A DNA stretch of 64,000 nucleotides from Thauera sp. (GTDB lineage: Bacteria; Pseudomonadota; Gammaproteobacteria; Burkholderiales; Rhodocyclaceae). The translations under genes were made by a program, and so were the position numbers. Shown here piece by piece: positions 1,205 to 20,695 of this stretch. Location of the stretch: the NCBI GenBank assembly GCA_024235615.1, contig JACKMB010000003.1, positions 62,001-126,000 on the forward strand, read 5' to 3'. Each line of letters opens with the position of its first letter. Position 1 is the stretch's first letter. The notes below the pieces were generated by a model. The model was not told the DNA's origin, did not search any database, and worked only from the letters and a program-made list of their open reading frames with translations.

Positions 1205-1939
1205 TCAGGTTCGCGGGCGGCTGCGGTACAGCCAGCGCACATCGACCGCGAAGGACCACGCCAGCAGCGCCAGCGCCAGCGCCAGCAGCATCGTCGCCAG
1301 CGCGCCAGCGATCACCGGCAGCAGGCACACCAGCAGGCTCGCGACCTGCCACACGCACACCAGCTTGCGCCGCCGGCTCTCCGGCAGCGGCCGCTCCAGC
1401 CAGGGCCAGGGCTGCATCGCGGCGACGAAGGCATAGCGCATCGCCCCGATCGCCAGCACCCAGGGCCCTGCCTTGCCCATCGCCAGCAGATGCACGCACA
1501 GGACCAGGATCAGGAAGGCGTCGAGCTCCATGTCGAAGCGCGCGCCGAAGTCGCTCTCGCAATGCCAGCGCCGCGCTACCCAGCCATCCACGCCGTCGAG
1601 CAGCAGGGCGATCGCGGCGAGCACTGCGACCGCCACGGCGTGCTCGCCCACCCATCCCGGCGCTGCGAGCGCGCCGGCAAGCGCGGCCACCAGCAGCGCG
1701 CGCCCGAGCGTGACGCAGTTGGCCGGACCGAGCCCGCCGCGCGATTCGCGGCGGAAGCGGAGGATCAGTGCGGAGATGGCGAGCAAGACGGCGCCCGCCG
1801 CCCATGCGGCGCCAGCCGGCAACGCCAGCGTGGTGATCGCCAGCGCGAGGAGCGCGACGAGGCCGCCAAAGCCGCCGGCCAGTTCCAGCCAGAGGCGGGG
1901 AAGTCCGCCGCGCCGAACGCAAGATCCGCCCTGCTCCAT
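1205..1939 (-). CDS. CDP-alcohol phosphatidyltransferase family protein
   Basis: Integral membrane enzyme of the CDP-alcohol phosphotransferase fold, which moves a phosphoalcohol from a CDP-linked donor to an acceptor alcohol. The full signature DG(x2)AR(x8)G(x3)D(x3)D is present (DGWVARR, then G and two Asp in DFGARFDMELDA), so it should be active. About six hydrophobic segments surround it, and the motif follows the first two helices as in the family. The 244-residue length assumes the ATG about 11 nt after AAGGG; another ATG 9 nt upstream lies too close to that Shine-Dalgarno. The substrate cannot be read from sequence. It is divergent from the dehydrogenase/PTPS/glycosyltransferase run and is probably part of the same locus. 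Confidence 0.85.
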   Translation of the reverse strand: MEQGGSCVRRGGLPRLWLELAGGFGGLVALLALAITTLALPAGAAWAAGAVLLAISALILRFRRESRGGLGPANCVTLGRALLVAALAGALAAPGWVGEHAVAVAVLAAIALLLDGVDGWVARRWHCESDFGARFDMELDAFLILVLCVHLLAMGKAGPWVLAIGAMRYAFVAAMQPWPWLERPLPESRRRKLVCVWQVASLLVCLLPVIAGALATMLLALALALLAWSFAVDVRWLYRSRPRT

Positions 1940-2152
1940 CGCCTTCATGTCCCTTCGTCCGTCACGCACGCCGCTCTCAGCGCCGCAGGAGCGGCGTCGG
2001 CCGCGAATCGGGTCGCACGGATCTCGACGCGCATGCTGCCGATCCACGGCCACATCCGCGCCTGCCGGCGCGCCTACAGGGGCTGCGGCGCCCTGCTACC
2101 ATGCCTGCTTCGATCATCCGCTGCGCGAAAGGGTTCGCACAAGGAGCGCCGC

Positions 2153-3151
2153 ATGTCCGCCCCCAACCTCGCCTTCTGGACCGTCCGCCCGGGCTGCGGC
2201 GAACTGCGCCCGGCGCCGCTGCCGCCGCCCGGCGCGGGCGAGGTCCTCGTGCGCAACCTCTACGGCGCAGTCAGCCGCGGCACCGAGGGCCTGGTCTTTC
2301 GCGGCGAGGTGCCCGAGAGCGAATACCAGCGCATGCGCGCACCCTTTCAGGAAGGCGATTTCCCCGGTCCGCTCAAGTACGGCTACATCGGCGTCGGCGT
2401 GGTGGAGGACGGTGTCGGCGACGCCGCCGCCGCACTGCGCGGCCGCACGGTGTTCTGCCTGCACCCGCACCAGCAGCGCTACGTGGTGCCCGCCGACGCC
2501 GTCGTTCCCTTGCCCGAAGGCGTGCCCGCCGCGCGCGCGGTGCTGGCCGCCAACCTCGAGACCGCGATCAACGCCTGCTGGGACGGCGCTCCTGCGGTGG
2601 GCGACCGCGTCGCGGTGGTCGGCGCCGGCGTGCTCGGCAGCCTGGTCGCCTGGCTGTGCGCGCGCATCCCCGGCGTCGAGCTCGAACTGATCGACACCGA
2701 TCCAGGCCGCGCACGCCTTGCCGAGGCGCTCGGCCTGGTTCACCGCCTGCCGGACCAGGCCCGCGGCGACTGCGACCTCGTCTTCCACGCCAGCGGCAAC
2801 CCCGCCGGCCTGGTGCGCGCGCTCGAGCTCGCCGGCCAGGACGCCACCGTGGTGGAGATGAGCTGGTACGGTCGCCGCAGTGCCGAGCTGCCGCTTGGCG
2901 CCGCCTTCCACGCGCGCCGCCTGCGCCTGCAGTCCAGCCAGGTCGGCCGCCTGCCGCCGCAGCGCAGCCCGCGCTGGGATTACCGCCGCCGCATGGAACT
3001 CGCGCTCGCCCTGCTCGTCGATCCACGGATGGACGCGCTGATCAGCGGCGAGACCGACTTCACCGACCTGCCCGCGCTGATGCAGCGCCTCGCCGACGCT
3101 CCCGCCGGGGCGCTGTGCGAGCGCATCCGCTATGACGGTCCCACCCCCTGA
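2153..3151 (+). CDS. Zinc-type medium-chain dehydrogenase/oxidoreductase
   Basis: A 332-residue MDR-superfamily NAD(P)-dependent oxidoreductase. The start follows AAGGAG with 6 nt spacing; a long open frame upstream is not coding. The N-terminal GroES-like part contains SRGTEGLVFRGEVP and GYIGVGVVEDG. The Rossmann part has the glycine motif VAVVGAGVLGSLVAWL followed by an acidic strand end (LELIDTD), which favours NAD. The catalytic-zinc Cys of classical alcohol dehydrogenases is replaced (AVSRGTEG instead of xCGTD), so zinc catalysis is doubtful. The late QSSQVGRLPP block is typical of MDR relatives in bacteriochlorophyll and pterin-linked clusters. It is the first gene of a five-gene run; 30 nt separate it from the PTPS-like gene. 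Confidence 0.85.
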   Translation: MSAPNLAFWTVRPGCGELRPAPLPPPGAGEVLVRNLYGAVSRGTEGLVFRGEVPESEYQRMRAPFQEGDFPGPLKYGYIGVGVVEDGVGDAAAALRGRTVFCLHPHQQRYVVPADAVVPLPEGVPAARAVLAANLETAINACWDGAPAVGDRVAVVGAGVLGSLVAWLCARIPGVELELIDTDPGRARLAEALGLVHRLPDQARGDCDLVFHASGNPAGLVRALELAGQDATVVEMSWYGRRSAELPLGAAFHARRLRLQSSQVGRLPPQRSPRWDYRRRMELALALLVDPRMDALISGETDFTDLPALMQRLADAPAGALCERIRYDGPTP

Positions 3152-3181
3152 GATCCAACCCAGCATCGATCCGGAGCCCCC

Positions 3182-3580
3182 ATGTACAGCCTCACCGTCC
3201 GCGAACACATCATGATCGCCCACAGCTTCCGCGGCGAGATCTTCGGCCCGGCGCAGAAGATGCACGGCGCGACCTACCTGGTCGATGCCTGCTTCCAGCG
3301 CAGCGAGCTCGACGCCGACGGCCTGGTGGTCGACATCGGCCTCGCCGCCGAGACGCTGAAGGCGGTGCTCGCCGAGTTCAACTTCCGCAACCTCGACGAG
3401 CTCGAGGAGTTCCGTGGCCGCAACACCACCACCGAGTTCATGGCCAGGGTGGTCTTCGACCGCCTCGCGGCGGCGATCCGCGCCGGCCGCATCGGCCCCG
3501 GGGCAAAGGGGCTCGAGCGGCTGAAGGTGAGCCTGCACGAGTCGCACGTCGCCTGGGCGAGCTACGAGGGCACGCTGTGA
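3182..3580 (+). CDS. Divergent 6-pyruvoyl-tetrahydropterin synthase/QueD-fold protein
   Basis: A 132-residue T-fold protein of the PTPS/QueD family, whose classical members convert 7,8-dihydroneopterin triphosphate to pyruvoyl- or carboxy-tetrahydropterin. The fold signatures are recognisable: AHSF near residue 14, MHGATY near 28, an NTTTEF block near 83 (PTxE equivalent), and HES near 120. Key residues differ from the canonical enzyme. The third zinc ligand of HGH is Ala30, the catalytic Cys four residues before HG is Ala24, and the LDH catalytic His is Glu73. It probably performs a different reaction or only binds a pterin-like ligand. It sits between the dehydrogenase and the glycosyltransferase on the same strand. 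Confidence 0.82.
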
Positions 3581-3662
3581 GCGGACACCATCTCGCCGCC
3601 CGCGGCGGCGGTTCGCGCCGCGCAGGGCCCTGTCGCCGGCGCGGCGGACCAGGGCACACGCG

Positions 3663-4724
3663 ATGAGCCACCGGCTCGATTTCATCGTCCCCGGCGACCC
3701 CGCCCAACGCACTGGCGGCTATCTCTACGATGCCCGCATCGTCGAGGAACTGCGCCGCCTCGGCTGGACGGTCGACGTCCATGGCCTGCCCGGACGCTTC
3801 CCCGACGCCGACCCCACGGCGCGCGACGCCCTGCACGCCACCCTCGCCGCACTGCCCGCCGGCCGGCGCGTGGTGATCGATGGGCTCGCGCTCGGCGGCC
3901 TGCCCGAGGTCGCGATCGAGCATGCCGGGCGGCTACCGCTGGTCGCCCTGGTCCACCACCCGCTGGCCGACGAACGCGGCCTCGACCCGGTGTTGCGGCG
4001 CTGCCTGCTGGCGAGCGAACGCGCCGCGCTCGCCGCCGTGCGCATGGCGATCACCACCAGCGCCTTCACCGCGCGCCGGCTGCTCGACTTCGGCGTGCGC
4101 GCCGAGCGCATCCGCTGGGTCGAGCCGGGCACGGCACCGCTGCCACTCTCCGCCGCGGACGGTGAACCGCCCCACCTGCTGTGCGTCGCCAGCCTCACCC
4201 CGCGCAAGGGCCAGGACGTGCTCGTGCGCGCGCTCGAACGCGTGCGCGCGCTGCCCTGGCAGTGCACGCTGATCGGCAGCGCCAGCCGCGACCCCGGCTA
4301 CGCCGACGAGATTGCCGGGCTCGTCCGCCGCGCCGGCCTGGAGGACCGCATCCGGGTCGCCGGCGAATGCGCGGACGCAGCCCTGCTCGAAGCCTACGCT
4401 GCCGCCGATCTCTTCGTGCTGCCCTCGCACTACGAGGGCTACGGCATGGTGGTCGCCGAGGCGATCGCCGCCGGGCTGCCGGTGCTCGCCACCAGCGGCG
4501 GCGCGCTCGCCGCCACCCTGCCACCCGGCGCCGGGGTGCACGTCCCGCCCGGCGACGTCGATGCGCTCGCCGGGACGCTCGCCGAGCTGATCGGCGACCG
4601 CAGCCGGCGCCTGTGCCTGCGCGACGGCGCCCGCCTCGCCCGCGCCAGCCTGCGCAGCTGGACGCAGGCTGGCGAGGCTTTCGCCGCCGCCCTCGCCGCG
4701 CTCGCGCCGGCACCCGCAGCGTGA
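3663..4724 (+). CDS. Glycosyltransferase family 4 (GT-B fold)
   Basis: A 353-residue cytoplasmic retaining glycosyltransferase. The C-terminal nucleotide-sugar domain has SLTPRKGQDVLVRAL, then the family EX7E pair in EGYGMVVAEAIAAGLPVLA (about residues 260-280). The N-terminal acceptor domain starts with the glycine-rich loop TGGYLYD, as in GT4 enzymes. Donor and acceptor are unknown. The gene begins 82 nt after the PTPS-like gene and is followed 16 nt later by a methyltransferase, so one transcript is likely. A pterin or pyrimidine acceptor is an inference from the neighbourhood; a lipid-linked acceptor is equally possible given the membrane proteins in the locus. Confidence 0.9.
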   Translation: MSHRLDFIVPGDPAQRTGGYLYDARIVEELRRLGWTVDVHGLPGRFPDADPTARDALHATLAALPAGRRVVIDGLALGGLPEVAIEHAGRLPLVALVHHPLADERGLDPVLRRCLLASERAALAAVRMAITTSAFTARRLLDFGVRAERIRWVEPGTAPLPLSAADGEPPHLLCVASLTPRKGQDVLVRALERVRALPWQCTLIGSASRDPGYADEIAGLVRRAGLEDRIRVAGECADAALLEAYAAADLFVLPSHYEGYGMVVAEAIAAGLPVLATSGGALAATLPPGAGVHVPPGDVDALAGTLAELIGDRSRRLCLRDGARLARASLRSWTQAGEAFAAALAALAPAPAA

Positions 4725-4740
4725 TCCCCCCGGAACCGAC

Positions 4741-5682
4741 ATGCAGTCCCGCCCCGACACCGCCATGCCCCACCCCGACGCCTGTTTCGATGCAGACTGG
4801 CTCGCCCTGCGCGCCGCCGCCGACCGCGCTGCGCGGGCACCCCGGCTGGAGACCCTCGCCGCCGCCTGGCTGCGTGGCCGGCAGCAGCAGAACCCGCAGG
4901 CCCCGCTCCGCCTGGTCGACCTCGGCTGCGGCAGCGGTGCCAACCCGCGCCACCTGGCGCCACGCCTGCCCGGTCCGCAGCAGTGGACGCTGCTCGACCA
5001 CGACGCCGGTCTTCTGCGGCGCGCCCGCACCCTCTGCGCGGACCTGCGCGACGCCGGGGGCGTGAGGCTGCAGGTTGACACCCGCTGCTTGGATCTGAGC
5101 GCACTCGCCGCGTCTTCGCTGGCGAACGCTGACCTCGTGTGCGCCTCCGCCCTGCTCGACCTGATGTCGGCAGACTGGCTGGGGCGCCTCGCCGATGCAT
5201 GCGCGCACAACGGCTGTGCGCTGCTGATCACGCTGAGCGTCGACGGCACCTGGCGCTTCCTGCCCCAGGCTCCCGGGGCGCCCGCAGACCCCGACGACGC
5301 CTTCATCCGCGATGCCTTCAACGCCCACCAGCGCCGCGACAAGGGCCTCGGTGCCGCGCTCGGCCCGACCGCCGCGCCCGCACTCGCCGAGCTGCTCGTG
5401 GCGCGCGGCTTCGCGGTCGAGCGCGCCGCCAGCCCGTGGCGGCTGGAGCTCGCCGACCCCGCACAGGCCGCGCTCGCGCGCGCGCTCATCGACGGCTGGC
5501 GCGACGCCGCGACGGCGCAGTGCCCGCAAGCCGCCGCGCGCATCAATGCCTGGCACCAGCGCCGCAGCGCGCAGTGCGACGGCAGGGGGAGCGGGCAGCT
5601 CGAAGTCGGCCATCTCGACCTCTTCGCCTGCCCGCCGACCACCGCCCTGCGCCCCGACCGCCCCGCCTCTCCTGGGCAATGA
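4741..5682 (+). CDS. Class I SAM-dependent methyltransferase
   Basis: A 313-residue Rossmann-fold methyltransferase. Motif I is LVDLGCGSGANPRHLAPRL (about residues 58-76). It is followed by the acidic ribose-binding strand LLDHDAGLL, and motif IV is NADLVCASALLDLMSADWL. The C-terminal 120 residues are less conserved and probably form a substrate lid. The substrate is unknown. A second in-frame ATG eight codons in (MPHPDACFD) is a possible alternative start. Its stop codon overlaps the start of the next gene by 4 nt (ATGA), which argues for translational coupling and a shared pathway. Confidence 0.88.
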   Translation: MQSRPDTAMPHPDACFDADWLALRAAADRAARAPRLETLAAAWLRGRQQQNPQAPLRLVDLGCGSGANPRHLAPRLPGPQQWTLLDHDAGLLRRARTLCADLRDAGGVRLQVDTRCLDLSALAASSLANADLVCASALLDLMSADWLGRLADACAHNGCALLITLSVDGTWRFLPQAPGAPADPDDAFIRDAFNAHQRRDKGLGAALGPTAAPALAELLVARGFAVERAASPWRLELADPAQAALARALIDGWRDAATAQCPQAAARINAWHQRRSAQCDGRGSGQLEVGHLDLFACPPTTALRPDRPASPGQ

Positions 5683-6659
5683 GCACCGAACCCCGGCGCA
5701 CGCGGCGCCTGCTGCCCATCCTGCGCGCGCTTGCGAGCCTGGCCCTGCTCGCCGGCGTGCTGTGGTGGATCGACCCGCGTGCCCTCGCCGCCGCCTTCGC
5801 CGCACCCGCACCCGGATGGCTGGCGCTCGCGCTCGTGATCGGCGTGCTGCAGACCGCCTTGTCGGCATGGCGCTGGCGGCTCACCGCCACCCGCCTCGGC
5901 GTACCGCTCGGCTTCGGCCACGCGCTGCGCGAGTACTACCTGGCGAGCTTTCTCAACCAGGTCCTGCCCGGTGGCGTGATGGGCGACGCCGCGCGCGCCT
6001 GGCGCCACGGCCGTCTGCCGGGTACGGCCAGCGCCGCGGCCTGGCAGGCGGTGGTGATCGAGCGCGGCTCGGGCCAGCTCGCGCTGCTGCTGGTGGTGAT
6101 CGCGAGCGTGCTCGCCTCCCCCACCGTGCAGGCTGTGCCGGCACGCCTGGCAGAAGCCGTCGACGCCCGAGGGCTGCCTTGGGTGGGCACGCTCGCCGCG
6201 CTGGTGCTCGTCGCGACGGCGCTCGCACGCCGCGCCCGGGAGGTCCTGCGCAGCCTGGCCCGCGCCCTTGGGCTGGCGCTCCTCGCGCGCGCAGTGCTGC
6301 TGCGCCAGCTGCTCGCCTCGCTGCTGATCGTGGCCAGCTACGTCGCGGTGTGGCTGTGCTGCATGCGCATGATCGGCCTCGTCACGCCACCGGCGCAGGC
6401 CGCCGCGCTGGTGCCCTGGGTGCTGCTGGCGATGGCGATCCCGCTGTCGGTGGGAGGCTGGGGCATCCGCGAAGGGGCTGCAGCGCTGGTGTGGCAGGCT
6501 GCCGGGCTGGACGCCGCCGAAGGTGTGGCGGCGTCCGTGTGTTATGGGCTGGTCGTGCTGCTGTCGACCCTGCCGGGTGCGTTCGTGCTGCAACGCCACA
6601 AGCCCGATGCGCGATCCGCCCCCGAGGCAACGCCTACTTGCCGGGCGGACGGGCCTTGA
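5679..6659 (+). CDS. Lysylphosphatidylglycerol-synthase TM region / flippase-like membrane protein (UPF0104)
   Basis: A 326-residue polytopic inner-membrane protein of the LPG_synthase_TM family (MprF N-terminal flippase fold). Typical blocks are LREYYLASFLNQVLPGGVMGD (residues about 84-104), RAWRHGR, VVIERGSGQLALL, and a late IPLSVGGWGIREGAAAL; this is the PxxxGGxGxREG signature of the family. There are about eight hydrophobic helices. The start overlaps the methyltransferase stop as ATGA. In this context it could move a lipid-linked or polar product across the membrane. The 3' end overlaps the convergent AraC-type regulator gene by 26 nt. Confidence 0.88.
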   Translation: MSTEPRRTRRLLPILRALASLALLAGVLWWIDPRALAAAFAAPAPGWLALALVIGVLQTALSAWRWRLTATRLGVPLGFGHALREYYLASFLNQVLPGGVMGDAARAWRHGRLPGTASAAAWQAVVIERGSGQLALLLVVIASVLASPTVQAVPARLAEAVDARGLPWVGTLAALVLVATALARRAREVLRSLARALGLALLARAVLLRQLLASLLIVASYVAVWLCCMRMIGLVTPPAQAAALVPWVLLAMAIPLSVGGWGIREGAAALVWQAAGLDAAEGVAASVCYGLVVLLSTLPGAFVLQRHKPDARSAPEATPTCRADGP

Positions 6660-7575
6660 GGCTCTCCGAGGGCAGGACGCCGAAGCTCGACTTGTAGAGC
6701 TCGGCGAAACGGCCGAGATGGGTGAAGCCGTAGTCGAGCGCCACGGCCGTCACGCTCGCCACGCGCACGGCAGGGTCCATCAAGGTCGCGTACACGTGCT
6801 CGAGCTTCTTGCGTCGGATGTAGCTGCGCGGCGACATCCGCGCCTGGTCCTTGAATACCTGGTAGAGCGAGCGCTGGCTCAACCCGGCGAACTGGGCGAG
6901 CTGCTCGACGCTGATGTCCTGCTTGATGCGCGCCTCGATGTGCCGCTCGAGGCGCTCGAACAGCCGCACCTGGCCACAGATCTGCGAGGTCGGCTGGTTG
7001 CGCTGCAGGGTGAACAGCAGCTTGTTGGCGATAGCATGGGCGTAGTGCATGAAAAGCTGCGCGCGCACCGCCCCGCTGGCACCTTCACTCGCAACCAGGC
7101 GCAGCAGCGTGATCAGATGATCGAGCTCGTCGCGCGAGCAAGGGCTGCGATTGAAACGCACGCACTCGGCCAGCTGGAGCCAGCCGCACTCCGAACACGC
7201 CTCGCGCAGGATCGACTCGGGGACGAGCACGCTCCACAGCTCGCTGTCGGACGAATAGCGCAGCTCGGGAACTGCACTGGTACCGAGTAGGATCTGGCCG
7301 GGTTCGAGCTCGATCTCGGCCTCGCCCTCGCCAGTGCGCAGGAAGGCACGCCCACTCACCAGCACCAGCGCCTCGTACTGCTCGCCCGCGTTCAGCGGCG
7401 CCTCGTCCGACGCAATCTCGGCGGCGAGCCGGCACAGGTCGAGGTGCTGGACGCTCGCAGGCCGTGACACTCCCCCAAGCTGGGAGACCGGCTCTCGCCC
7501 GGCCGCACGCTCGATTGCGGCAATCGGCGCCGGGGCATGCGGTCGTTGCGAATTGGACGACAGGTCGATCGGCAT
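6634..7575 (-). CDS. AraC/XylS-family transcriptional regulator
   Basis: A 313-residue regulator with an N-terminal AraC_binding_2-like sensor domain (about 1-200) and a C-terminal double helix-turn-helix (about 215-310: SVEQLAQFAGLSQRSLYQVF and later VTAVALDYGFTHLGRFAELY). The ending FGVLPSESLK matches the FGxxPSxxLR tail of AraC proteins. The start at MPIDLSS has GGAG 6 nt upstream; an upstream in-frame codon would add 17 unlikely residues. The organisation resembles FeaR/XylS-type activators that sense small aromatic or organic ligands. It sits between the biosynthetic run and the RibD-C/RibA genes, so it is a candidate regulator of that locus. Confidence 0.9.
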   Translation of the reverse strand: MPIDLSSNSQRPHAPAPIAAIERAAGREPVSQLGGVSRPASVQHLDLCRLAAEIASDEAPLNAGEQYEALVLVSGRAFLRTGEGEAEIELEPGQILLGTSAVPELRYSSDSELWSVLVPESILREACSECGWLQLAECVRFNRSPCSRDELDHLITLLRLVASEGASGAVRAQLFMHYAHAIANKLLFTLQRNQPTSQICGQVRLFERLERHIEARIKQDISVEQLAQFAGLSQRSLYQVFKDQARMSPRSYIRRKKLEHVYATLMDPAVRVASVTAVALDYGFTHLGRFAELYKSSFGVLPSESLKARPPGK

Positions 7576-7706
7576 CCTCACTCCAGTGAATCGGCGAGCC
7601 GGCTGAAGCGTGCACCCGTCGCCCACTCGCCGCGGAGCGCCGGTCGTCTCGCGGCGGCGCCGAACGACTCAGCGTCGCACGGAAATGGTTACGAAAACGT
7701 GATTCA

Positions 7707-8636
7707 TTATAGCATCCGTTTGTCGAGGTTGAAGTGTTTTGTCGTTACATTTCTAGTTTCTCGAGATTTTACTTGCTGAAACCGTCCGTGTGCGCCATCG
7801 AAGTCGAGATCGAACAAGGTGTCGCCGCCGCAGCGGAACTGCCTGCACACCGGGCGCAGCGCCTCGTCGAGCGCGTCGATCGGCGGCAGCACCAGCCCTG
7901 GCCGCCCCGAACCGATCAGCAGCGGCGCGACCAGCAGGTGCAGCCGATCGATCGCTCCCGCCTGCACGAAGCGCGACACCGTGAGTCCGCCCCCCTCCAC
8001 GAGCACCCGCCTGCATCCCGCGCCGGCCAGCCATTCCAGCACCGCAGCCGGCGCGAACCCTGACTCCGTCCGCGGCAGGCCCACGCGGACGAGCCGATCC
8101 GGGAGCCTCGCGCAGGCCGGCGCCAGATCCTCGCCAAGCAGATGCACCGTCGGCGCTGCACCGTCGTGGAACAGATTCGCCTCCGCCCGCGCCCGCCCGC
8201 GCGGGTCGAGCACCACGCGCACCGGGTTGCGCCCGGCCACGTGGCGCACCGTCAGCAGTGGATTGTCGGCATTCACCGTGCCCACCCCCACCACCACCGC
8301 ATCCACCAGCGCCCGCAGCCGGTGCAGGTGAGTGCGCGCCTCGAGGCAGTTGATGTAGTGCGAGGCCCCGCTCGCGGTGGCGATGCGCCCATCCAGGCTC
8401 TGCCCCAGCTGGGCGATCGCGAGCCGGCCCGGCGTGGCCACCCAGGGCAGGAAGAGATCGAGCAGCGCCGCGGTGTCGGCGCGCAAGGCGTGCGCGCACT
8501 TCCAGGCCCCCCCGGGCGCGATCTCGACGCTCACGCCCTCGACCGTGAAACTTATCGCGCCGGCGCCGGCCCAATCCGCATCACGGGCTTGCAGGATGCA
8601 GGCCCAGCCCCAATCTGGTACAAGTTCGTCCGCCAT
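7707..8636 (-). CDS. RibD C-terminal-type pyrimidine reductase (dihydrofolate reductase superfamily)
   Basis: A 309-residue NADPH-dependent reductase related to the RibD C-terminal domain and ArfC, which reduce the ribosyl chain of 2,5-diamino-6-ribosylamino-pyrimidinone phosphate. Signatures are the QLGQSLDGRIATASG block (about 77-91), LRALVDAVVVGVGTVNADNP (107-126), and VLVEGGGLTVSRFVQAGAID (about 216-235). No deaminase domain (HAE/PCxxC) is present; instead about 70 residues of unrecognised sequence precede the reductase fold. The start has AAGGAAGG a few nt upstream. It is divergent from the GTP cyclohydrolase II gene. The last 20 residues are basic and AT-rich in coding, which may be an extension into spacer. 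Confidence 0.88.
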   Translation of the reverse strand: MADELVPDWGWACILQARDADWAGAGAISFTVEGVSVEIAPGGAWKCAHALRADTAALLDLFLPWVATPGRLAIAQLGQSLDGRIATASGASHYINCLEARTHLHRLRALVDAVVVGVGTVNADNPLLTVRHVAGRNPVRVVLDPRGRARAEANLFHDGAAPTVHLLGEDLAPACARLPDRLVRVGLPRTESGFAPAAVLEWLAGAGCRRVLVEGGGLTVSRFVQAGAIDRLHLLVAPLLIGSGRPGLVLPPIDALDEALRPVCRQFRCGGDTLFDLDFDGAHGRFQQVKSRETRNVTTKHFNLDKRML

Positions 8637-8733
8637 CCATCCTTCCTTGAAAAATCGTCTTCACTCGCGTCTGCCGGCCTGCAAAGCGCCTGGTGCAGGG
8701 TCGAGCCCCGACACCCCAAACGGAGAAAAACAA
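8637..8733. promoter_or_regulatory. Divergent promoter region between RibD-C-like and RibA-like genes
   Basis: A 97-nt gap between two outward-facing genes that both belong to pyrimidine/flavin-type chemistry. It must hold both promoters if both genes are transcribed from here. No clear sigma-70 box pair or FMN-riboswitch (RFN) fold could be picked out by eye, so position-level claims are not made. The Shine-Dalgarno sites at each edge (AAGGAAGG leftward, CGGAG rightward) are clear. Confidence 0.4.
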
Positions 8734-9891
8734 ATGCGCCAAGCCGAGCGTGCCCTCTTCGACCTGCGCCGCGGACTTTCGATCCTCATGCGCGACCACG
8801 AGCGCGCCTTCGTCGTGTGCGCGGTCGAAGGCCTGGTCGATGCCGCCGCGGGCGCGATGCAGGCGCTGGCCGGCTCGCCCGCTCGCCTGGTGCTGAGCAA
8901 GCACCGCCTCGCCGCGATCGGCCACCCCAGCGCCGCACCAGCCGTTGCAATCGCCCTCTCGCCCCTTCCCGACGCTGCCGGACTGCGCGCGCTCGCCTGG
9001 CAACGCGGCGCCAGCCTGCCCGCCGGCGCCAATCTACGCGACGGCGGCCTGGTCGAAAGTGCCGCCCTGCGCCTGCTCGGCCGCGCACAGCTGGTTCCGG
9101 CAGCGCTGGTCTGCGAAGTCGGCGCCGAGCAGGCCGCCACAATCGCCACCGCGGTCGCGAGCGGCGATCTGCTCGCGGTGGACGCGGCCGAGGCCATGCG
9201 CCTGTGCGAGAGCGGCCCGGGCCGGCTCGCCCGCATCAGCGAGGCGCGCGTGCCGCTGGCCGAGGCCGAGAACAGCCGCTTCGTGCTCTTCCGCGAGGCC
9301 GACGGCGTGCACGAGCACGTCGCCATCGTGATCGGCGAGCGCGCCGGCTGGCCCGAGGACGTCCCGGTGCGACTGCACTCGTCCTGCCTCACCGGCGATC
9401 TCTTCGGCAGCCTGCGCTGCGACTGCGGGGAGCAGCTGCGTCGCGGCGTTGCGGCCATCCACGCGCTCGGCGGCGGCGTGCTGCTGTATCTGTCGCAAGA
9501 GGGCCGCGGCATCGGCCTGGCCAACAAGCTGCGCGCCTACGGCCTGCAGGACGAAGGCCTGGACACGATCGACGCCGACCAGGTGATCGGATTCTCCAAG
9601 GACGAGCGCGACTTCCGCATCGCCCACGAGATGCTCGACGAGCTCGGCATCGACCGCATCCTGCTGCTCACCAACAACCCGAGCAAGGTCGCCGCGCTGC
9701 AGAAGGCCGGCATCCACGTCGTCGGCCGGCGCGCGATCTATGGCGAGGTCACCGAGCAGAACCAGCGCTATCTCAAGACCAAGGCCAGCCGCCACGGGCA
9801 CTGGCTGAACGATCTGCTCAACGAGCAGGGTGAGCCCGGTGACGACGAGCCCGCATGCCTGCCCGCCGCGGACGCCGCGCACCGCGCCTGA
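8734..9891 (+). CDS. GTP cyclohydrolase II (RibA-type) with degenerate RibB-like N-terminal half
   Basis: A 385-residue protein. The C-terminal half (about 175-365) is a full GTP cyclohydrolase II: zinc ligands C218, C229 and C231 in HSSCLTGDLFGSLRCDCGEQ, then GRGIGLANKLRAYGLQD and the LLTNNPSKVAAL block. It opens GTP to 2,5-diamino-6-ribosylamino-pyrimidinone phosphate, formate and pyrophosphate. The N-terminal half keeps echoes of DHBP synthase (LVPAALVCEVG resembles the PAGVICEIM stretch of RibB). It lacks recognisable RibB catalytic signatures, so that half is probably inactive. It starts after CGGAG. It need not be the housekeeping RibA; its neighbours suggest a dedicated copy. Confidence 0.9.
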   Translation: MRQAERALFDLRRGLSILMRDHERAFVVCAVEGLVDAAAGAMQALAGSPARLVLSKHRLAAIGHPSAAPAVAIALSPLPDAAGLRALAWQRGASLPAGANLRDGGLVESAALRLLGRAQLVPAALVCEVGAEQAATIATAVASGDLLAVDAAEAMRLCESGPGRLARISEARVPLAEAENSRFVLFREADGVHEHVAIVIGERAGWPEDVPVRLHSSCLTGDLFGSLRCDCGEQLRRGVAAIHALGGGVLLYLSQEGRGIGLANKLRAYGLQDEGLDTIDADQVIGFSKDERDFRIAHEMLDELGIDRILLLTNNPSKVAALQKAGIHVVGRRAIYGEVTEQNQRYLKTKASRHGHWLNDLLNEQGEPGDDEPACLPAADAAHRA

Positions 9892-9923
9892 GGCGAGGCC
9901 TGCCGCCCGGCGATGCTGCGCGC

Positions 9924-10754
9924 TCAGCCGCGGTGATCGGGCGGCGGACTCCGCTCGACGAGCCCCTCCAGATCGAAGTCGCGTGCATCCTCGATGATGC
10001 GCGCGAGCCTAGTCGCGAAGTGTTCCACCAGGCGCTCGCCGAGCGCGGCGTCCGCCAGGCGCGGATCGCCGCAGGCACCCGACGGGTGCAGGTCCTGTGC
10101 CATCCAGGCGAAGCCGGCCTCACCCTCGGGGCCGAGCACGCGCCCCTCGGCCGCCATGCGCACCCCGATCGACTCGAAGCGATCGATCGCCTCGCGCCTC
10201 ACCTTGTGCGGCGCCAGATGCAGCATCAGCGCGGTCTCGAGCGCCCCGCCGTGCAGGCCGTGGCGCAGCTCTTCGGCCGGCAGCGCGTCCGGCGGCGGCG
10301 GGAAGCGGAAGGAGTGCGCGCGCACCACCAGCATGCGCTGCGCCGCGCGCAGCTCGAGCGCGGCCAGATCCACCAGCGCCTTGTTGCCGCCATGGGTGTT
10401 GAACAGCACCAGACGGCGCACCCCCGCCCGCGCGACGCCGGCGCCGATCTCCACCAGGCTCGCCAGCGCGGTGCTCGCGCCGAGCGCGAGCGTGCCGGCA
10501 AAGCCGCTGTGTTCCAGGCTGCAGCCCGGCACGAAGGGCGGCAGCACGCACAGCGGCAGCCCCGGGCGCAGCTTCGGCACGGCGGCCTCGAGCAGGCCGA
10601 GGGCGATGTCGAGGTCGGTCGACAGCGGCAGGTGTTCGCCATGCTGCTCGATCGCGGCGAGCGGCAGCAGCACGACCGCATCGGCGCGGGCGAGCGCGGC
10701 GATGCGGCTCGGGGTCAGGTCCTGCCACCAGGGCAGCGCGGGCGTGAGGTTCAT
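9924..10754 (-). CDS. Creatininase-family amidohydrolase (MftE/ArfB-like)
   Basis: A 276-residue metal-dependent hydrolase of the creatininase fold, which includes creatininase, the mycofactocin peptidase MftE and the archaeal FAPy deformylase ArfB. Metal and catalytic residues are visible: E36 and H38 in AAIEQHGEHLPLSTD, D47 in the same block, H121 in LFNTHGGNK, and HGGALETALML around E173. The start at MNLTPALPW was chosen because the upstream 69 in-frame codons are Arg/Gly-rich non-coding sequence. It is convergent with RibA with a 32-nt gap. The pairing with a GTP-opening enzyme and a RibD-type reductase makes an ArfB-like deformylase role attractive, but this is inference. Confidence 0.88.
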   Translation of the reverse strand: MNLTPALPWWQDLTPSRIAALARADAVVLLPLAAIEQHGEHLPLSTDLDIALGLLEAAVPKLRPGLPLCVLPPFVPGCSLEHSGFAGTLALGASTALASLVEIGAGVARAGVRRLVLFNTHGGNKALVDLAALELRAAQRMLVVRAHSFRFPPPPDALPAEELRHGLHGGALETALMLHLAPHKVRREAIDRFESIGVRMAAEGRVLGPEGEAGFAWMAQDLHPSGACGDPRLADAALGERLVEHFATRLARIIEDARDFDLEGLVERSPPPDHRG

Positions 10755-10927
10755 GGCGGTCGGGATCTCGGCGGGGGGCGACTGATCCGGATCATAGCCG
10801 CAGTCGGGGCCAGCCCGTGGGCGCAGGGCGCCGCAGCCTGGTGCCCGGCGCGTGCGGGGCGCCGGTCCGCCACCTCGCGCCGCCCGGCGCGTGCCGCACG
10901 CAGCGGAACGCTCGCGTGAGCGCACGA

Positions 10928-12778
10928 ATGCGCACCCTCGTCCTCGGCAGGCTCGTGCCACTGTTCGTGCCGCTGTTCGTACTCAACGCCTTGCTGGTGT
11001 TCGGCAACGCCTGGCCGACGCTGTGGCCGCGGCCGGCGCTGGCGGTCTCGATCGAGCTCGCCTTCGCCGTCGCCGCACTGGTGCTGCTCGCCGGCTGGCG
11101 CGGACGTATCCCACCCGGCCTCGTGCGCGTACTCGCAGCGCTGGCCACGCTGTGGATCGTGCTGCGCTACGTGCAGGTCACCGTGCCCGCGCTGTTCGGC
11201 CGCCCGCTCAACCTCTACTGGGACCTGCCCCACCTTGGCGCCGTCCTCGACATGGGCGGCGACGGACCGGGCGCGAAGATCCTGCTCGCGCTCGCGCTCG
11301 GCGCCCTCGTCGTGCTGGCCCTGTATGGCGTGGTGTCGGCCTGCGTGCGCGCGCTCGCGCACGGCGCTGCGGAAGCGGGCGCGCGGGCGCTGCTCGGCGG
11401 CGTGGCGGGCGCGGCGATCCTGTTGTGGGCGCTGGCGCCGTGGGTCGGGCCCGCCCCCTCATCCGTCACCTCATCGGCCTTCGCGCGGCCGGTCGCCCCG
11501 CTGGCCCTCGAGCAGATCCGCTTCCTGAGCGCGGCACTCGCCGCCGACGCCGCCGACCGGCTCGGCGCCGACCCCGACTTCCGCGGCGACCTCGCGGCGC
11601 TGCGCGGCGCCGACGTCCTGATCCTGTTCGCCGAGGCCTACGGCGCAGTCACTTTCGATCGACCACCGATTGCTGCGGCGCTCACCGACGCACGCGAGCA
11701 GTTCGCCACCGCGATCGCCACCAGCGGCCGCCGGGCCGTCTCCGGCCGCGTGGTCTCGCCGACCTTCGGCGGCGCCTCCTGGCTGGCGCACGCCGCCGTG
11801 CTCGCCGGCGTCGACACCCGCGACCCGGCGGACTACGCGCTGCTGCTCACCACCGACCGTCCCACCCTCGTCCGCCACTTCGCCGCCCACGGCTACCGCA
11901 CCGTCGGCTGGATGCCGGGACTGCAGCGCCCGTGGCCGGAGGGCCGCTTCTACGGTTTCGACCGCATCGCCGACGCCGACAGCGCGGGCTACGCCGGCCT
12001 GCCCTTCGGCTTCTGGCGCATTCCTGACCAGGCCTCGATGGCGCGCATCCATTTCGACGAGCTCGGCGGGCGCTTCGGCGAGGCTGCCGGGGACTTTGGC
12101 GGGGCTGCCGGGGACATTGGCGGGGCCGGCGGGGGCATCGGCGGGGCCGGCGAGGGCGTCGGCGGGGCCGGCGGTGCGCCAAAGCGCGGCTCCAGCCCGG
12201 GATCGTCGCCGGCTCTTGCGGACGACACCGGCCCCGGCGCACCCACGTATCGTCCGGGAATGCCCGCCGAGACCGCGGCCAAGCGTCGCGCGCCGCGGCT
12301 GGTCGTTTTTCCGACCGTCACCACGCACGCCCCCTTCGCGGCGATTCCGCCCTTGCGCGAGGACTGGTCGCGCTTGCTGCGCGCCGACGCCTTTCACCGG
12401 GAGGAGGTGGACGCCGCGGAGGGACAGCCGGTGTCCTGGACCGAGCCGCTACCCGCCTATCTGGCCTCGATGCGCTACCAGTTCGGCTGGCTCGCCGACT
12501 ACCTCGCCCGCCACGCCGCACAGGACCTCGTGATGATCGTGATCGGCGACCACCAGCCGGTCGGCACCGTCAGCGGCCCGGATCAGCCCTGGGACGTTCC
12601 GGTGCATGTGATCGCCTCCGACCCCGCCCTGCTCGCCCGCTTCGAGGCCGCCGGCTTCATCGCCGGCCTCACCCCGCCGCAACAGCCGCTCGGCCCGATG
12701 CACGTACTCACGCAGCTCCTGGCAAACGCCTTCTCGAGTCCGCCTCGCGACACCCCACGCCGCAACGCCCCCCCGTAA
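10928..12778 (+). CDS. Membrane-anchored sulfatase/alkaline-phosphatase-fold protein (LtaS-like)
   Basis: A 616-residue protein. The first about 190 residues hold four or five hydrophobic helices; the rest is a periplasmic alkaline-phosphatase-superfamily domain of the lipoteichoic-acid-synthase/phosphoethanolamine-transferase type. Seen elements are ILFAEAYGAVTFD (metal-site Glu), SPTFGGASWLAHAAVLAG (probable Ser/Thr nucleophile region), FPTVTTHAPFAAIPP, and IGDHQPVG (Asp-His metal ligands). Such proteins transfer or remove phospho-head groups outside the inner membrane. A Gly/Ala heptad repeat of about 34 residues interrupts the domain. A GTG four codons upstream is an alternative start. 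It faces away from the creatininase gene and closes the locus. Confidence 0.8.
   Translation: MRTLVLGRLVPLFVPLFVLNALLVFGNAWPTLWPRPALAVSIELAFAVAALVLLAGWRGRIPPGLVRVLAALATLWIVLRYVQVTVPALFGRPLNLYWDLPHLGAVLDMGGDGPGAKILLALALGALVVLALYGVVSACVRALAHGAAEAGARALLGGVAGAAILLWALAPWVGPAPSSVTSSAFARPVAPLALEQIRFLSAALAADAADRLGADPDFRGDLAALRGADVLILFAEAYGAVTFDRPPIAAALTDAREQFATAIATSGRRAVSGRVVSPTFGGASWLAHAAVLAGVDTRDPADYALLLTTDRPTLVRHFAAHGYRTVGWMPGLQRPWPEGRFYGFDRIADADSAGYAGLPFGFWRIPDQASMARIHFDELGGRFGEAAGDFGGAAGDIGGAGGGIGGAGEGVGGAGGAPKRGSSPGSSPALADDTGPGAPTYRPGMPAETAAKRRAPRLVVFPTVTTHAPFAAIPPLREDWSRLLRADAFHREEVDAAEGQPVSWTEPLPAYLASMRYQFGWLADYLARHAAQDLVMIVIGDHQPVGTVSGPDQPWDVPVHVIASDPALLARFEAAGFIAGLTPPQQPLGPMHVLTQLLANAFSSPPRDTPRRNAPP
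12077..12178 (+). repeat. In-frame 21-bp tandem repeat inside the sulfatase-fold gene
   Basis: About 4.9 copies of a 21-bp unit encode the heptads GEAAGDF, GGAAGDI, GGAGGGI, GGAGEGV and GGAGGA. Copies differ by a few bases and all keep the reading frame. The insert probably forms a flexible surface loop. Because the unit is a multiple of three, copy number could change without breaking the protein. Confidence 0.85.
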
Positions 12779-12789
12779 GCGGCGCGAGG

Positions 12790-13545
12790 GCCCTGTAGGA
12801 GCGCCGGCAGGCGCGAAAGCGGCGGTGGCTCGCGGAACGCGCGTCATTTTCCGCACAGCCGGATTCGCAGCTGCCGCAGCTCCTACAGGAAGCCCGGAAC
12901 GCGTGGCGGTTCGTGTAGGAGCGCCGGCAGGCGCGAACGCGGCGGTGGCGTCCGGAACGCGCGTCATTTGCCGCACCGCCGGATTCGCAGCTGCCGCAGC
13001 TCCTACAGGCGGTCCGGAACGCGTGGGGGTTCATGTAGGAGCGCCGGCAGGCGCGAAGGCGGCGGTGGCTCGCGGAACGCGCGTCATTTTCCGCACCGCC
13101 GGATTCGCAGCTGCCGCAGCTCCTACAGGCGGTCCGGAACGCGTGGTGGTTCATGTAGGAGCGCCGGCAGGCGCGAAGGCCGCGATGGTTCACGGAACGC
13201 GCGTCATTTGCCGCACCCCCGGATTCGCCGCTGCCGCAGCTCCTACAGGAAGCCCGGAACGCGTGGCGGTTTGTGTAGGAGCGCCGGCAGGCGCGAACGC
13301 GGCGGTGGCGTCCGGAACGCACGTCATTTGCCGCACCGCCGGATTCGCCGCTGCCGCAGCTACTACAGGAGGCCCAGAACGCGTGGTGGTTTGTGTAGGA
13401 GCAAAGGCGGCGGTGGAGTCCGGAACGCGTGGCGGTTTGTGTCGGAGCGCCGGCAGGCGCGAAAGCGGCGTCGATGACCTGTGACAACGTCGCCCCTGCA
13501 CCGCCACATTCGCGGCTGCCGCCGCTCCTACAGGGGCGGCAGCGT
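12790..13545. repeat. REP/BIME-like tandem array, 120-bp period
   Basis: No gene is supported here. GTAG-headed hairpin units (GTAGGAG, then stem GCGCC-GGCA-GGCGC, then GAA) recur at exactly 120-bp spacing near 12794, 12914, 13034, 13154 and 13274, with degenerate copies near 13394 and 13440. Between them, in the opposite orientation, lie variant hairpins ending in GCTCCTACA. The spacer text (GCGGAACGCGCGTCATTT and relatives) is also repeated, so the whole 120-bp dimer was amplified. Open frames crossing the array are artefacts of its periodicity. Confidence 0.9.
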
Positions 13546-19247: not shown

Positions 19248-20695
19248 GGCTCTATGCCCTTTCCAGTGGAAATTGACTCAACAACAAACATGACGGTAGC
19301 GCCCGTATTCGCGGGGGGTCGCCGGCACCATGGGGTTCTTCGGTAGATGTTCGAGCTTGGACATGCGCAGGTAGGCGATGGCGATGAAGTTGTCGAGGTT
19401 GCGGAAGCCTCGGGCGGCGGTCTTCGTCTGCTGAAGCTGCCCGTTCATCGCCTCGACGTAGGCGTTGCTGCGCCCGTCGAGCATGCCGCGAAGCACGCCG
19501 CCCAGATGCTCCTTGATCGTGGCGCCGAGTCGCTTGAAGGGCTCCAGGCGCGAGCGCCGGGCCCAACTCACCCACTTCATCAACGCCCCGCGGGCGACCT
19601 CTTGGCAGTTGCTCGCAGCCGCCTCGCGATAGACAAGCCGCAAGCCCTGCTTCATCCGCCATGCGCGCGCACTCTTGAGGCCCGAGCGCTGCAGCCAGTT
19701 CATCGCGTTGCACTGCGCCGGGGTCCAGTGCGGCGGGTTCTTGCGCATGGCCCACAGCAATTGGCGCAGCGTCTTCTTGTTGCCCGTGCCCGCCGCGGCG
19801 CGGATCGCGGCCGCCGAGCTGCGCATCTCCTCGCGGCGTACCTCGTCCATGGCCGCATTGGCCAGGGCGACGACGTGGAAGCGGTCGTAGGAGACCTGGG
19901 CTTTGGGCAGCGACCGGGCGATCCCCTTGGCGTAGGCCGCGCTCATGTCGATGCAGGCGTGCTCGATGCGGTCTGGCTCGCCACCGTGCGCGCGCAGGTC
20001 CTGGGCAAAGGCTTGCAGCGTTGTGTGGTCTCGCCCCGGCGTGGCGAACAGCAGGCGCTTGGCGTCCAGGTCATGCACCACGGTGATGTATTCGTGCCCC
20101 CGCTTGACGCTGGTCTCGTCGATGCCGACGTAGCGCACGGCAGACATGTCATCCCGAGCCCGCGCACCGTGAACGTAGTGGCGGATCCGACCCCACAGCC
20201 GCTTGGGCGCGACCCGCATCTGGGCAGCAGCCTGGCGCACGGGCAACTCTCTGCACAGGGACAGACCCAGTGCCTCGAACAGCAGCGTGAAACCGCTGCC
20301 CTCGCGTGCCCACGGCACCGGCAGCTGCGTGGTCTTGCCACAGCCCGAGCACTGCACGCGGGGGATGTCGGCATGGAGCCACGCCTCGAACTGAAAAAAG
20401 TCCAGGTGACGCCAGCTGCGCCGCACTCGATCGTGGACCGGCTGATGCACGGCACCACACGCCGGACAGGGCTCGCGCTTGCCGGTGTGCTCGACTTCGA
20501 AGTCGATCCGCCGCTTGGCCGTGTCGAGCTCGACCTTGGCGACGTGCCAGGGCGGCTGCAGACCCAGTGCGGTCGTGAAGAGGGCTTCGATCGGAGAACT
20601 CATGGTGGGCGCAGTCACGGTCAGGATCGGGGCGTTGTACCACCGATCACACTGTTTGTTGTTGAGTCAATTTCCACTGGAAAGGGCATAGAGCC
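19248..20695 (-). mobile_element. ISL3-family insertion sequence, complete, 1,448 bp
   Basis: Terminal inverted repeats of 43 bp are identical as far as compared. Both ends start GGCTCTATGCCC and run to 19290 on the left and from 20653 on the right. They are flanked by a perfect 8-bp direct repeat AAACAGAC (19240-19247 and 20696-20703), the duplication length expected for ISL3. One transposase gene fills the element. Perfect ends and duplication indicate a recent insertion, here into REP-rich spacer between the M20 gene and dbpA. Confidence 0.96.
19278..20603 (-). CDS. ISL3-family transposase
   Basis: A 441-residue DDE transposase. The N-terminal zinc-binding region has CPACG (about residues 45-49) and CSGCGK (about 86-91). 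The DDE domain starts at YVGIDETSVKRGHEY (first Asp), then CIDMSAAYAKGI (second Asp). The Glu lies in the SNAYVEAMNGQLQQ stretch, which is typical of ISL3 (transposase_ISL3, DDE_Tnp_ISL3). The ATG start (MSSPIEALF) was preferred over an in-frame GTG five codons upstream. The gene is complete and looks functional. Confidence 0.95.
   Translation of the reverse strand: MSSPIEALFTTALGLQPPWHVAKVELDTAKRRIDFEVEHTGKREPCPACGAVHQPVHDRVRRSWRHLDFFQFEAWLHADIPRVQCSGCGKTTQLPVPWAREGSGFTLLFEALGLSLCRELPVRQAAAQMRVAPKRLWGRIRHYVHGARARDDMSAVRYVGIDETSVKRGHEYITVVHDLDAKRLLFATPGRDHTTLQAFAQDLRAHGGEPDRIEHACIDMSAAYAKGIARSLPKAQVSYDRFHVVALANAAMDEVRREEMRSSAAAIRAAAGTGNKKTLRQLLWAMRKNPPHWTPAQCNAMNWLQRSGLKSARAWRMKQGLRLVYREAAASNCQEVARGALMKWVSWARRSRLEPFKRLGATIKEHLGGVLRGMLDGRSNAYVEAMNGQLQQTKTAARGFRNLDNFIAIAYLRMSKLEHLPKNPMVPATPREYGRYRHVCC

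Follow-up and report, generated by a model that had tools for sequence, protein, structure and literature searches.

Linked genes around an SCO6650-family protein in Thauera sp. probably form a biosynthetic branch from an early riboflavin intermediate to a glycosylated, methylated pterin- or pyrimidine-like compound

We analysed a window of 64,000 nucleotides from Thauera sp. (assembly GCA_024235615.1, contig JACKMB010000003.1, positions 62,001 to 126,000; coordinates below are those of the window), and found that a gene cluster near its start is probably a dedicated biosynthetic branch that would lead from an early riboflavin intermediate to a glycosylated, methylated pterin- or pyrimidine-like compound. 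The core of the cluster consists of a dehydrogenase of the medium-chain dehydrogenase/reductase (MDR) fold (2153-3151, + strand), a protein of the 6-pyruvoyltetrahydropterin synthase (PTPS) fold that belongs to the SCO6650 family (3212-3580, +, in a frame open from ATG 3182; PF01242, E = 3.6e-24), a GT4 glycosyltransferase (3663-4724, +; PF00534, 7.3e-30), a class I methyltransferase (4741-5682, +; PF13649, 4.2e-7) and a RibD-C-type reductase without a deaminase domain (7707-8636, -; PF01872, 2.2e-38). Near them lie a GTP cyclohydrolase II (GCH II, RibA) of what we call the cluster type (8734-9891, +; PF00925, 1.1e-54) and a creatininase-family amidohydrolase (9924-10754, -; PF02633, 1.5e-61). 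When 11 family models made from the cluster were run against the 64 kb, each gave one match, all between 0.48 and 12.8 kb. We judge the pathway to be real and, within the literature searched, undescribed; no paper describing the whole cluster was among those listed in searches of open-licence PMC literature, and subscription papers may differ. Known before were SCO6650 of Streptomyces coelicolor, which has a solved structure, and SCO6655, which appears as a GCH II in the entries of PMC2853524.

The window PTPS-fold protein and SCO6650 were used as queries in a genome scan that returned at least 587 relatives, the best 80 of which were fetched as loci. These 80 loci span Pseudomonadota, Actinomycetota and Acidobacteriota, lean to Halomonadaceae, and include several that are cut by contig ends and were still counted. 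For a second sample, 398 genomes were drawn evenly across the phylum of the window; about 7% of them (27/398, the genome of the window included) have the PTPS marker gene, and the 26 other strong carriers were taken. This sample left out 77 genomes whose PTPS matches were weak (50.6 bits or less, compared to 134.3 bits or more for those kept) and were taken as QueD-like, and two of its stretches (L167 and L183) are under 19.5 kb. Families were counted with models made from BLAST matches of the window proteins in the two sets of loci combined. The results show that the MDR gene is present in 78/80 loci of the first set and 26/26 of the second, the GT4 gene in 80/80 and 25/26, the methyltransferase gene in 76/80 and 24/26, and the RibD-C gene in 67/80 and 22/26. 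The glycosyltransferase and the methyltransferase, which the first-pass annotation had counted as part of the set, are therefore both in the core, and they share a single open frame in 30 of the 106 loci (two confirmed by Pfam). The accessory genes were found less often: the CDP-alcohol transferase in 69/80 and 12/26 loci, the flippase-like gene in 57/80 and 11/26, the LtaS-like gene in 31/80 and 5/26, and the YceI gene in 24/80 and 4/26. As a control, 20 stretches of 19.5 kb taken elsewhere in 20 of the 26 carrier genomes gave one weak GT4 match (58.9 bits) and no match to any other family.

Co-occurrence was then counted in 61 whole genomes (that of the window and 60 relatives), 17 of which carry the PTPS gene, with a threshold of E <= 1e-30 for the other families. 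The MDR gene was found in 17/17 genomes with PTPS vs 1/44 without it (G026, 77% complete), the RibD-C gene in 17/17 vs 1/44 (G024, about 680 contigs), and the creatininase gene in 15/17 vs 4/44. In the relative G017, the set is split into two pieces 45 kb apart, and both pieces are retained. Taken together, the linkage and co-occurrence counts define a core of MDR-PTPS-GT4-methyltransferase-RibD-C, and the co-inheritance of the cluster genes is demonstrated; the earlier proposal that these genes travel together is borne out both by their linkage in unrelated genomes and by the way in which MDR and RibD-C track PTPS at the whole-genome level.

The PTPS-fold protein is a member of the SCO6650 family, with SCO6650 itself (3d7j) being its only relative in the PDB at E <= 0.001 (2.1e-47 over residues 1-122, 61% identity). 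In the 18 aligned members, His5, His19 and His110-Glu111-Ser112 are invariant (18/18), and Ala stands in place of both the catalytic Cys and the final His of the HGH motif, a zinc ligand (18/18). The conserved Glu is presumably the residue that anchors the aminopyrimidine ring in PTPS, and the SCO6650 protein is said to be without zinc and without PTPS activity. According to the motif descriptions of PMC5041015, PTPS-I carries CxxxHGH, PTPS-II CxxxxxHGH and PTPS-III ExxHGH, and a PTPS-V group whose function is called unclear is also given there. None of the PTPS-I/QueD, PTPS-II and PTPS-III motifs was found in the window protein; the family reads AQxxHGA (AxxxHGA in 18/18 rows), and a QueD or PTPS identity was rejected on these motifs. 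Large plasmids carry the PTPS gene as well: at E <= 1e-20, it was found in 18 of 72,556 plasmid records, and cluster genes adjoin it in the three plasmid loci viewed (L189-L191).

The window RibA is a GCH II that keeps the three zinc Cys (54, 65 and 67), Arg128 and Tyr105 (E. coli numbers), a selection of residues that we take to be diagnostic. In a tree of 112 RibA rows, in which the group labels were our own and for which the tool warned of long branches (Micromonospora, L056 and L030 among them), the window RibA falls inside a cluster-type clade that is apart from canonical RibA (split support 99/91), with the RibA of a Thauera metagenome-assembled genome (L013) as its sister. This clade has 69 rows, of which 58 are labelled cluster, 10 come from genomes of the same genus without PTPS and 1 is other; one tree row labelled cluster (L162) comes from a contig other than that of the locus of its genome (L079). 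The RibAs of the ten same-genus genomes without PTPS nest within the cluster-type clade, canonical RibA is retained by G025 of the same genus and G033 of the same family, and the plainest reading is that the cluster-type RibA took over riboflavin duty in the genus. The cluster appears to have acquired GCH II on at least two occasions, once in a clade of Proteobacteria, Acidobacteria and Micromonospora and once in a clade of other Actinobacteria. In the same-genus RibA loci (each about 3.5 kb long except for one of 2.2 kb), RibD-C and creatininase lie beside RibA in 11/11 genomes with PTPS and the LtaS-like gene in 10/11, compared to 0/10 for RibD-C, 0/10 for the LtaS-like gene and 4/10 for creatininase in the genomes without PTPS. 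A domain of about 165 residues (8734-9240) precedes the GCH II domain of the window RibA; it matched NCBIfam PRK08815 under the cut-off and had no Pfam match.

Two PF00925 matches were found in the genome of the window: the window RibA and a second protein in ribE-ribB-ribH-nusB order. The second is a RibBX-like protein with a degraded GCH II domain (6100-7188 of stretch L083, contig C12, in a ribE-ribBX-ribH-nusB context), which has neither the three zinc Cys nor the segment surrounding Tyr105 and resembles the RibBX proteins in the description of PMC10012899; no canonical short RibA was found in this genome. The 24 carriers examined include eight Halomonadaceae and Methyloversatilis genomes, all of which (8/8) have a canonical short RibA besides the cluster RibA; in one of them (G067), the cluster RibA is frame-broken in the record. 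Three carriers of Variovorax and Xenophilus (G071, G072 and G081) are without a canonical GCH II among the matches found, which reach about 124-138 bits, with distant ones at 57-59 bits.

We also compared the residue at E. coli position 105 with the presence of the creatininase. In the CREATININASE comparison, this position is without Tyr in 12/116 GCH II rows, two of which (L160 and L161) are second fetches, leaving ten actinobacterial genes with either Met (L048, L052, L062, L071, L073 and L075) or His (L065, L066, L080 and L162, the last from the genome of L079). In S. coelicolor SCO6655, Met at this position reportedly makes the enzyme stop at the formylated pyrimidine. Among the actinobacterial loci with RibA, Met or His was found in 9/9 of those with a creatininase, and Tyr in 5/5 of those with no creatininase in the locus (L054, L055, L061, L063 and L067), a pattern that fits a deformylase role for the creatininase, with BrbF as a precedent from bacteria. 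The window protein belongs to the creatininase family by its PF02633 match and by the residues E, H, D, H and E, invariant in 58/58 rows, which we take to be the metal-site residues. Since the window RibA keeps Tyr, a step like that of ArfB in archaeal riboflavin synthesis is not clearly needed. In addition, six genomes of the same genus (G003, G011, G014, G018, G021 and G022) have this RibA type with no PTPS and no such creatininase (E <= 1e-30), and together with the retained Tyr they would argue against the need for a separate deformylase here. The parallel to the archaeal enzymes ArfA, ArfB and ArfC that the first-pass annotation had drawn is thus incomplete, given the Tyr of RibA and these six genomes without such a creatininase.

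The RibD-C-type reductase carries the RibD_C domain only, and is not a bifunctional RibD. Its best PDB chain is 6p8c (5.3e-22), which is named a diaminopyrimidine-type reductase, followed by 2azn, named a uracil-type reductase in its file and presumably an archaeal enzyme, and then by bacterial RibD (8.2e-18). The MDR enzyme gave weak Pfam matches (ADH_zinc_N, 0.0071), and its best NCBIfam model is BchC (8.2e-13), which it matches at 48.1 bits, under the cut-off of 291. Compared by sequence, its conserved N-terminal stretch is mostly SRGTE and KYGY at the putative equivalents of CGTD and GHE in zinc enzymes of the MDR fold, whose catalytic zinc ligands are Cys-His-Cys.

Based on these families, a pathway can be proposed. 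RibA would open GTP to give the 2-amino-4-oxopyrimidine ribotide, as in established GCH II chemistry, and RibD-C, for which the cluster encodes no deaminase partner, may reduce this ribotide with the 2-amino group kept. The PTPS-fold protein and the MDR dehydrogenase would then modify the side chain or form a second ring, and the GT4 enzyme and then the methyltransferase, as their families and their shared frame in 30 loci suggest, would give the glycosylated, methylated pterin- or pyrimidine-like compound. The CDP-alcohol transferase, the flippase-like protein, the sulfatase-superfamily enzyme and YceI may serve as optional later steps that place the product in the envelope.

Several results weigh against such a branch. 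No intact GCH II other than the window RibA was found in its genome, so that this enzyme should also feed riboflavin there, and its presence alone shows no diversion; in another carrier, G069, the best GCH II match is likewise the cluster copy, followed by one other match of 151 bits. The first-pass annotation had taken RibA for an extra, dedicated copy, and had named a sole GCH II that groups with housekeeping copies as a finding that would refute its proposal. The sole intact copy is what we found, and the extra-copy claim was rejected for this genome; the grouping, in contrast, is with the cluster-type clade and not with canonical RibA. RibA was found in 57/80 loci of the first set and in 11/26 of the second, creatininase in 54/80 and 6/26, and RibD-C is missing in 4/26 sampled loci and in the actinobacterial loci L048, L052, L062, L065, L071, L073, L075 and L079. 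The match between Met or His and creatininase amounts to one or two events in evolution. In Proteobacteria, the window among them, creatininase accompanies a RibA of the Tyr form, a combination that a simple deformylase story does not predict. In NCBIfam, the bacterial RibD model gives RibD-C 109 bits and the archaeal reductase model 96.5 bits, both under the cut-off, so that the PDB and NCBIfam rankings point opposite ways on a preference for an aminated substrate. Finally, every reaction and product proposed here is inferred from sequence comparison.

The sole intact RibA also favours the explanation that RibA, creatininase (as BrbF in Sinorhizobium) and RibD-C are enzymes of riboflavin supply that lie by chance near envelope genes, as do the 4/10 same-genus RibA loci without PTPS in which RibA and creatininase stay together, and the creatininase-family formamidase that takes part in making riboflavin in S. 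meliloti and B. abortus in the account of PMC9478397. We consider this explanation improbable, since RibD-C beside RibA tracks PTPS in both the same-genus loci and the whole genomes, eight other carriers own a separate canonical RibA, and the core of the 26 loci is MDR-PTPS-GT4-methyltransferase-RibD-C, not RibA and creatininase. Moreover, RibD, RibE, RibB and RibH are all encoded elsewhere in the genome of the window, including a full RibD with deaminase and reductase domains (C1:790855) and the ribE-ribBX-ribH genes, which agrees with the earlier view that the locus stands apart from the genes of simple riboflavin supply. A further explanation, that the cluster makes an antibiotic which is secreted and, like toxoflavin or roseoflavin, resembles an azapteridine or a flavin, seems very improbable to us. 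Toxoflavin synthesis also uses a GCH II, a RibD-type enzyme and a methyltransferase, but Pfam gave no further toxoflavin-like gene in the scanned window proteins, and the spread over three phyla, with many Halomonadaceae in the best 80 matches, looks like general metabolism and less like an antibiotic specific to a strain. In favour of an antibiotic, the expression of SCO6655 in S. coelicolor opposes the predicted riboflavin flux, and the authors of the table that lists this gene remark that stationary phase brings a rise in most of its entries, which they regard as possible antibiotic genes (PMC2853524).

In a sharper form of the proposal, the glycosylated product would decorate periplasmic glucans or other surface glycans as a substituent, or serve as a precursor for them; the CDP-alcohol transferase would make a lipid carrier, the flippase-like protein would turn it, and the sulfatase-superfamily enzyme would transfer the product from it. 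We regard this form as possible but doubtful. It draws on mdoH or mdoG, genes of periplasmic glucan synthesis, which were found within the stretch in 14/26 sampled loci and 28/80 loci, compared to 0/20 controls, and which occur in at least three arrangements. In Halomonadaceae, the order is creatininase-FkbM-MdoH-MdoG; in L176, L177, L180, L182 and L185-L188, MdoH is divergent from MDR at a distance of at most 128 bases or overlapping (in stop-to-stop frames); and in L030, MdoH adjoins the CDP-alcohol transferase. MdoH is also annotated next to MDR in a Methylosinus record, the MdoG of L007 is certain by Pfam (1.3e-178), and an FkbM-type methyltransferase is present in 8/26 and 33/80 loci. In addition, a single frame holds the CDP-alcohol transferase and YceI in both L030 and L070, and the CDP-alcohol transferase and an LtaS-like domain in L080 (by a family-model match). 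Taken together, the mdo neighbours and the CDP-alcohol transferase, flippase-like, YceI and sulfatase-superfamily genes suggest an envelope product. Against the glycan form, the genome of the window has no match to mdoG, the 64-kb window has neither mdoH nor mdoG, the cluster exists in Actinobacteria, and mdoH could be a neighbour for regulatory reasons; because of the missing mdoG match and the actinobacterial carriers, a periplasmic glucan is at most one acceptor. The CDP-alcohol transferase, flippase-like, LtaS-like and YceI genes are each missing in over half of the 26 loci, and the lipid attachment that had been put forward for the product loses ground for this reason. Unlikely as a whole is the broadest form, a widespread and undescribed class of envelope-bound pterin- or aminopyrimidine-glycosides that would be made by GCH II, RibD-C, the zinc-free PTPS-fold protein and MDR, glycosylated, methylated and then joined to a lipid carrier or to periplasmic glucans, possibly providing a redox or light-absorbing group outside the cytoplasm. 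As a side observation, mdoH or mdoG and the FkbM-type methyltransferase recur by the cluster in L176-L188, L007 (16198-20319), L030, L172 and L191.

All genes that the first-pass annotation had listed between 1205 and 12778 were found in their places by profile matches, with a weak basis for the LtaS-like label, and a YceI-family periplasmic protein (484-1242, -; PF04264, 2.6e-39) is a further, accessory member outside that range. The other accessory genes encode a CDP-alcohol phosphatidyltransferase (1205-2053, -; PF01066, 2.4e-18), in which the family motif DGx2ARx8Gx3Dx3D is intact, a flippase-like membrane protein (LPG_synthase_TM; 5679-6659, +; PF03706, 3.1e-39), and an LtaS-like membrane protein (10928-12778, +, in a frame open from GTG 10817) that probably belongs to the sulfatase/alkaline-phosphatase superfamily. 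The LtaS-like window protein has no match in Pfam or NCBIfam; PF00884 (Sulfatase) matched 12/16 aligned members, the window protein not among them (E up to 1, best 8.9e-9), and the profile search of the PDB gave lipoteichoic acid primase 4uop at a weak E of 0.7. An AraC-type regulator lies within the stretch (6634-7626, -; PF12833, 7e-17) and is not conserved with the set: in the 80 loci, BLAST matches were found in 2, at 22 and 29% identity, and its place in the system, as claimed earlier, was rejected. The earlier core idea is thus partly supported and survives, with its RibA, ArfB and AraC parts corrected. The closest named locus by several genes is that of the Thauera metagenome-assembled genome L013 (RibA 79%, creatininase 78% and RmuC 88% identity). 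Rfam gave no riboswitch or other known RNA family at gathering score in the first 14 kb, and promoter and terminator predictions were no better than in shuffled sequence. Past the LtaS-like gene lies a repetitive stretch (12708-13487) that is open on both strands and whose translated repeats look, by eye, like intergenic ones on contig C12 of the same genome, and an ISL3-family transposase is located at 19278-20618, 6.5 kb away from the cluster.

If the proposed branch is true, an intermediate thought to serve riboflavin would also give, in three phyla, a compound not described in the literature searched. A function would be gained for a PTPS-fold family whose solved structure was deposited as an uncharacterized protein, the extra GCH II copies in carriers would be explained in part, and pterin-like chemistry would be connected to the cell envelope.

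Among known systems, the cluster resembles SCO6650-SCO6655 of S. coelicolor in the PTPS-fold protein, through the identity to SCO6650 given above, and in the GCH II, as which SCO6655 is listed in PMC2853524. The Streptomyces loci L073 and L189 have the order CDP-alcohol transferase, MDR, PTPS, GT4, methyltransferase, (flippase in L073), creatininase and RibA. In contrast, the RibA of the window has retained Tyr and falls in a different clade, and the window adds RibD-C, YceI and the LtaS-like gene, as judged from these other Streptomyces loci. With archaeal ArfA, ArfB and ArfC, the window shares an adjoining GTP-opening enzyme, creatininase-family hydrolase and RibD-C-type reductase, but it uses GCH II, which is unrelated to ArfA and expected to deformylate alone, and its trio is joined to PTPS, MDR, GT4 and methyltransferase. 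BrbF of Rhizobiales also belongs to the creatininase family, and has been shown to remove the formyl group from the GCH intermediate in bacteria; set against the window protein by description only, it differs in serving riboflavin supply and in having MarR and CobW neighbours (PMC9478397). PTPS and QueD (COG0720) are of the same fold family by profile, whereas the window family is without the PTPS-I, -II and -III motifs set out in PMC5041015. Finally, the pteridine glycosyltransferase of Chlorobium tepidum, likened here by description only, shows that bacterial sugar transfer to a pterin is known; its pterin is tetrahydrobiopterin, as summarized in PMC5683033, whereas the source enzyme in the window is GCH II.

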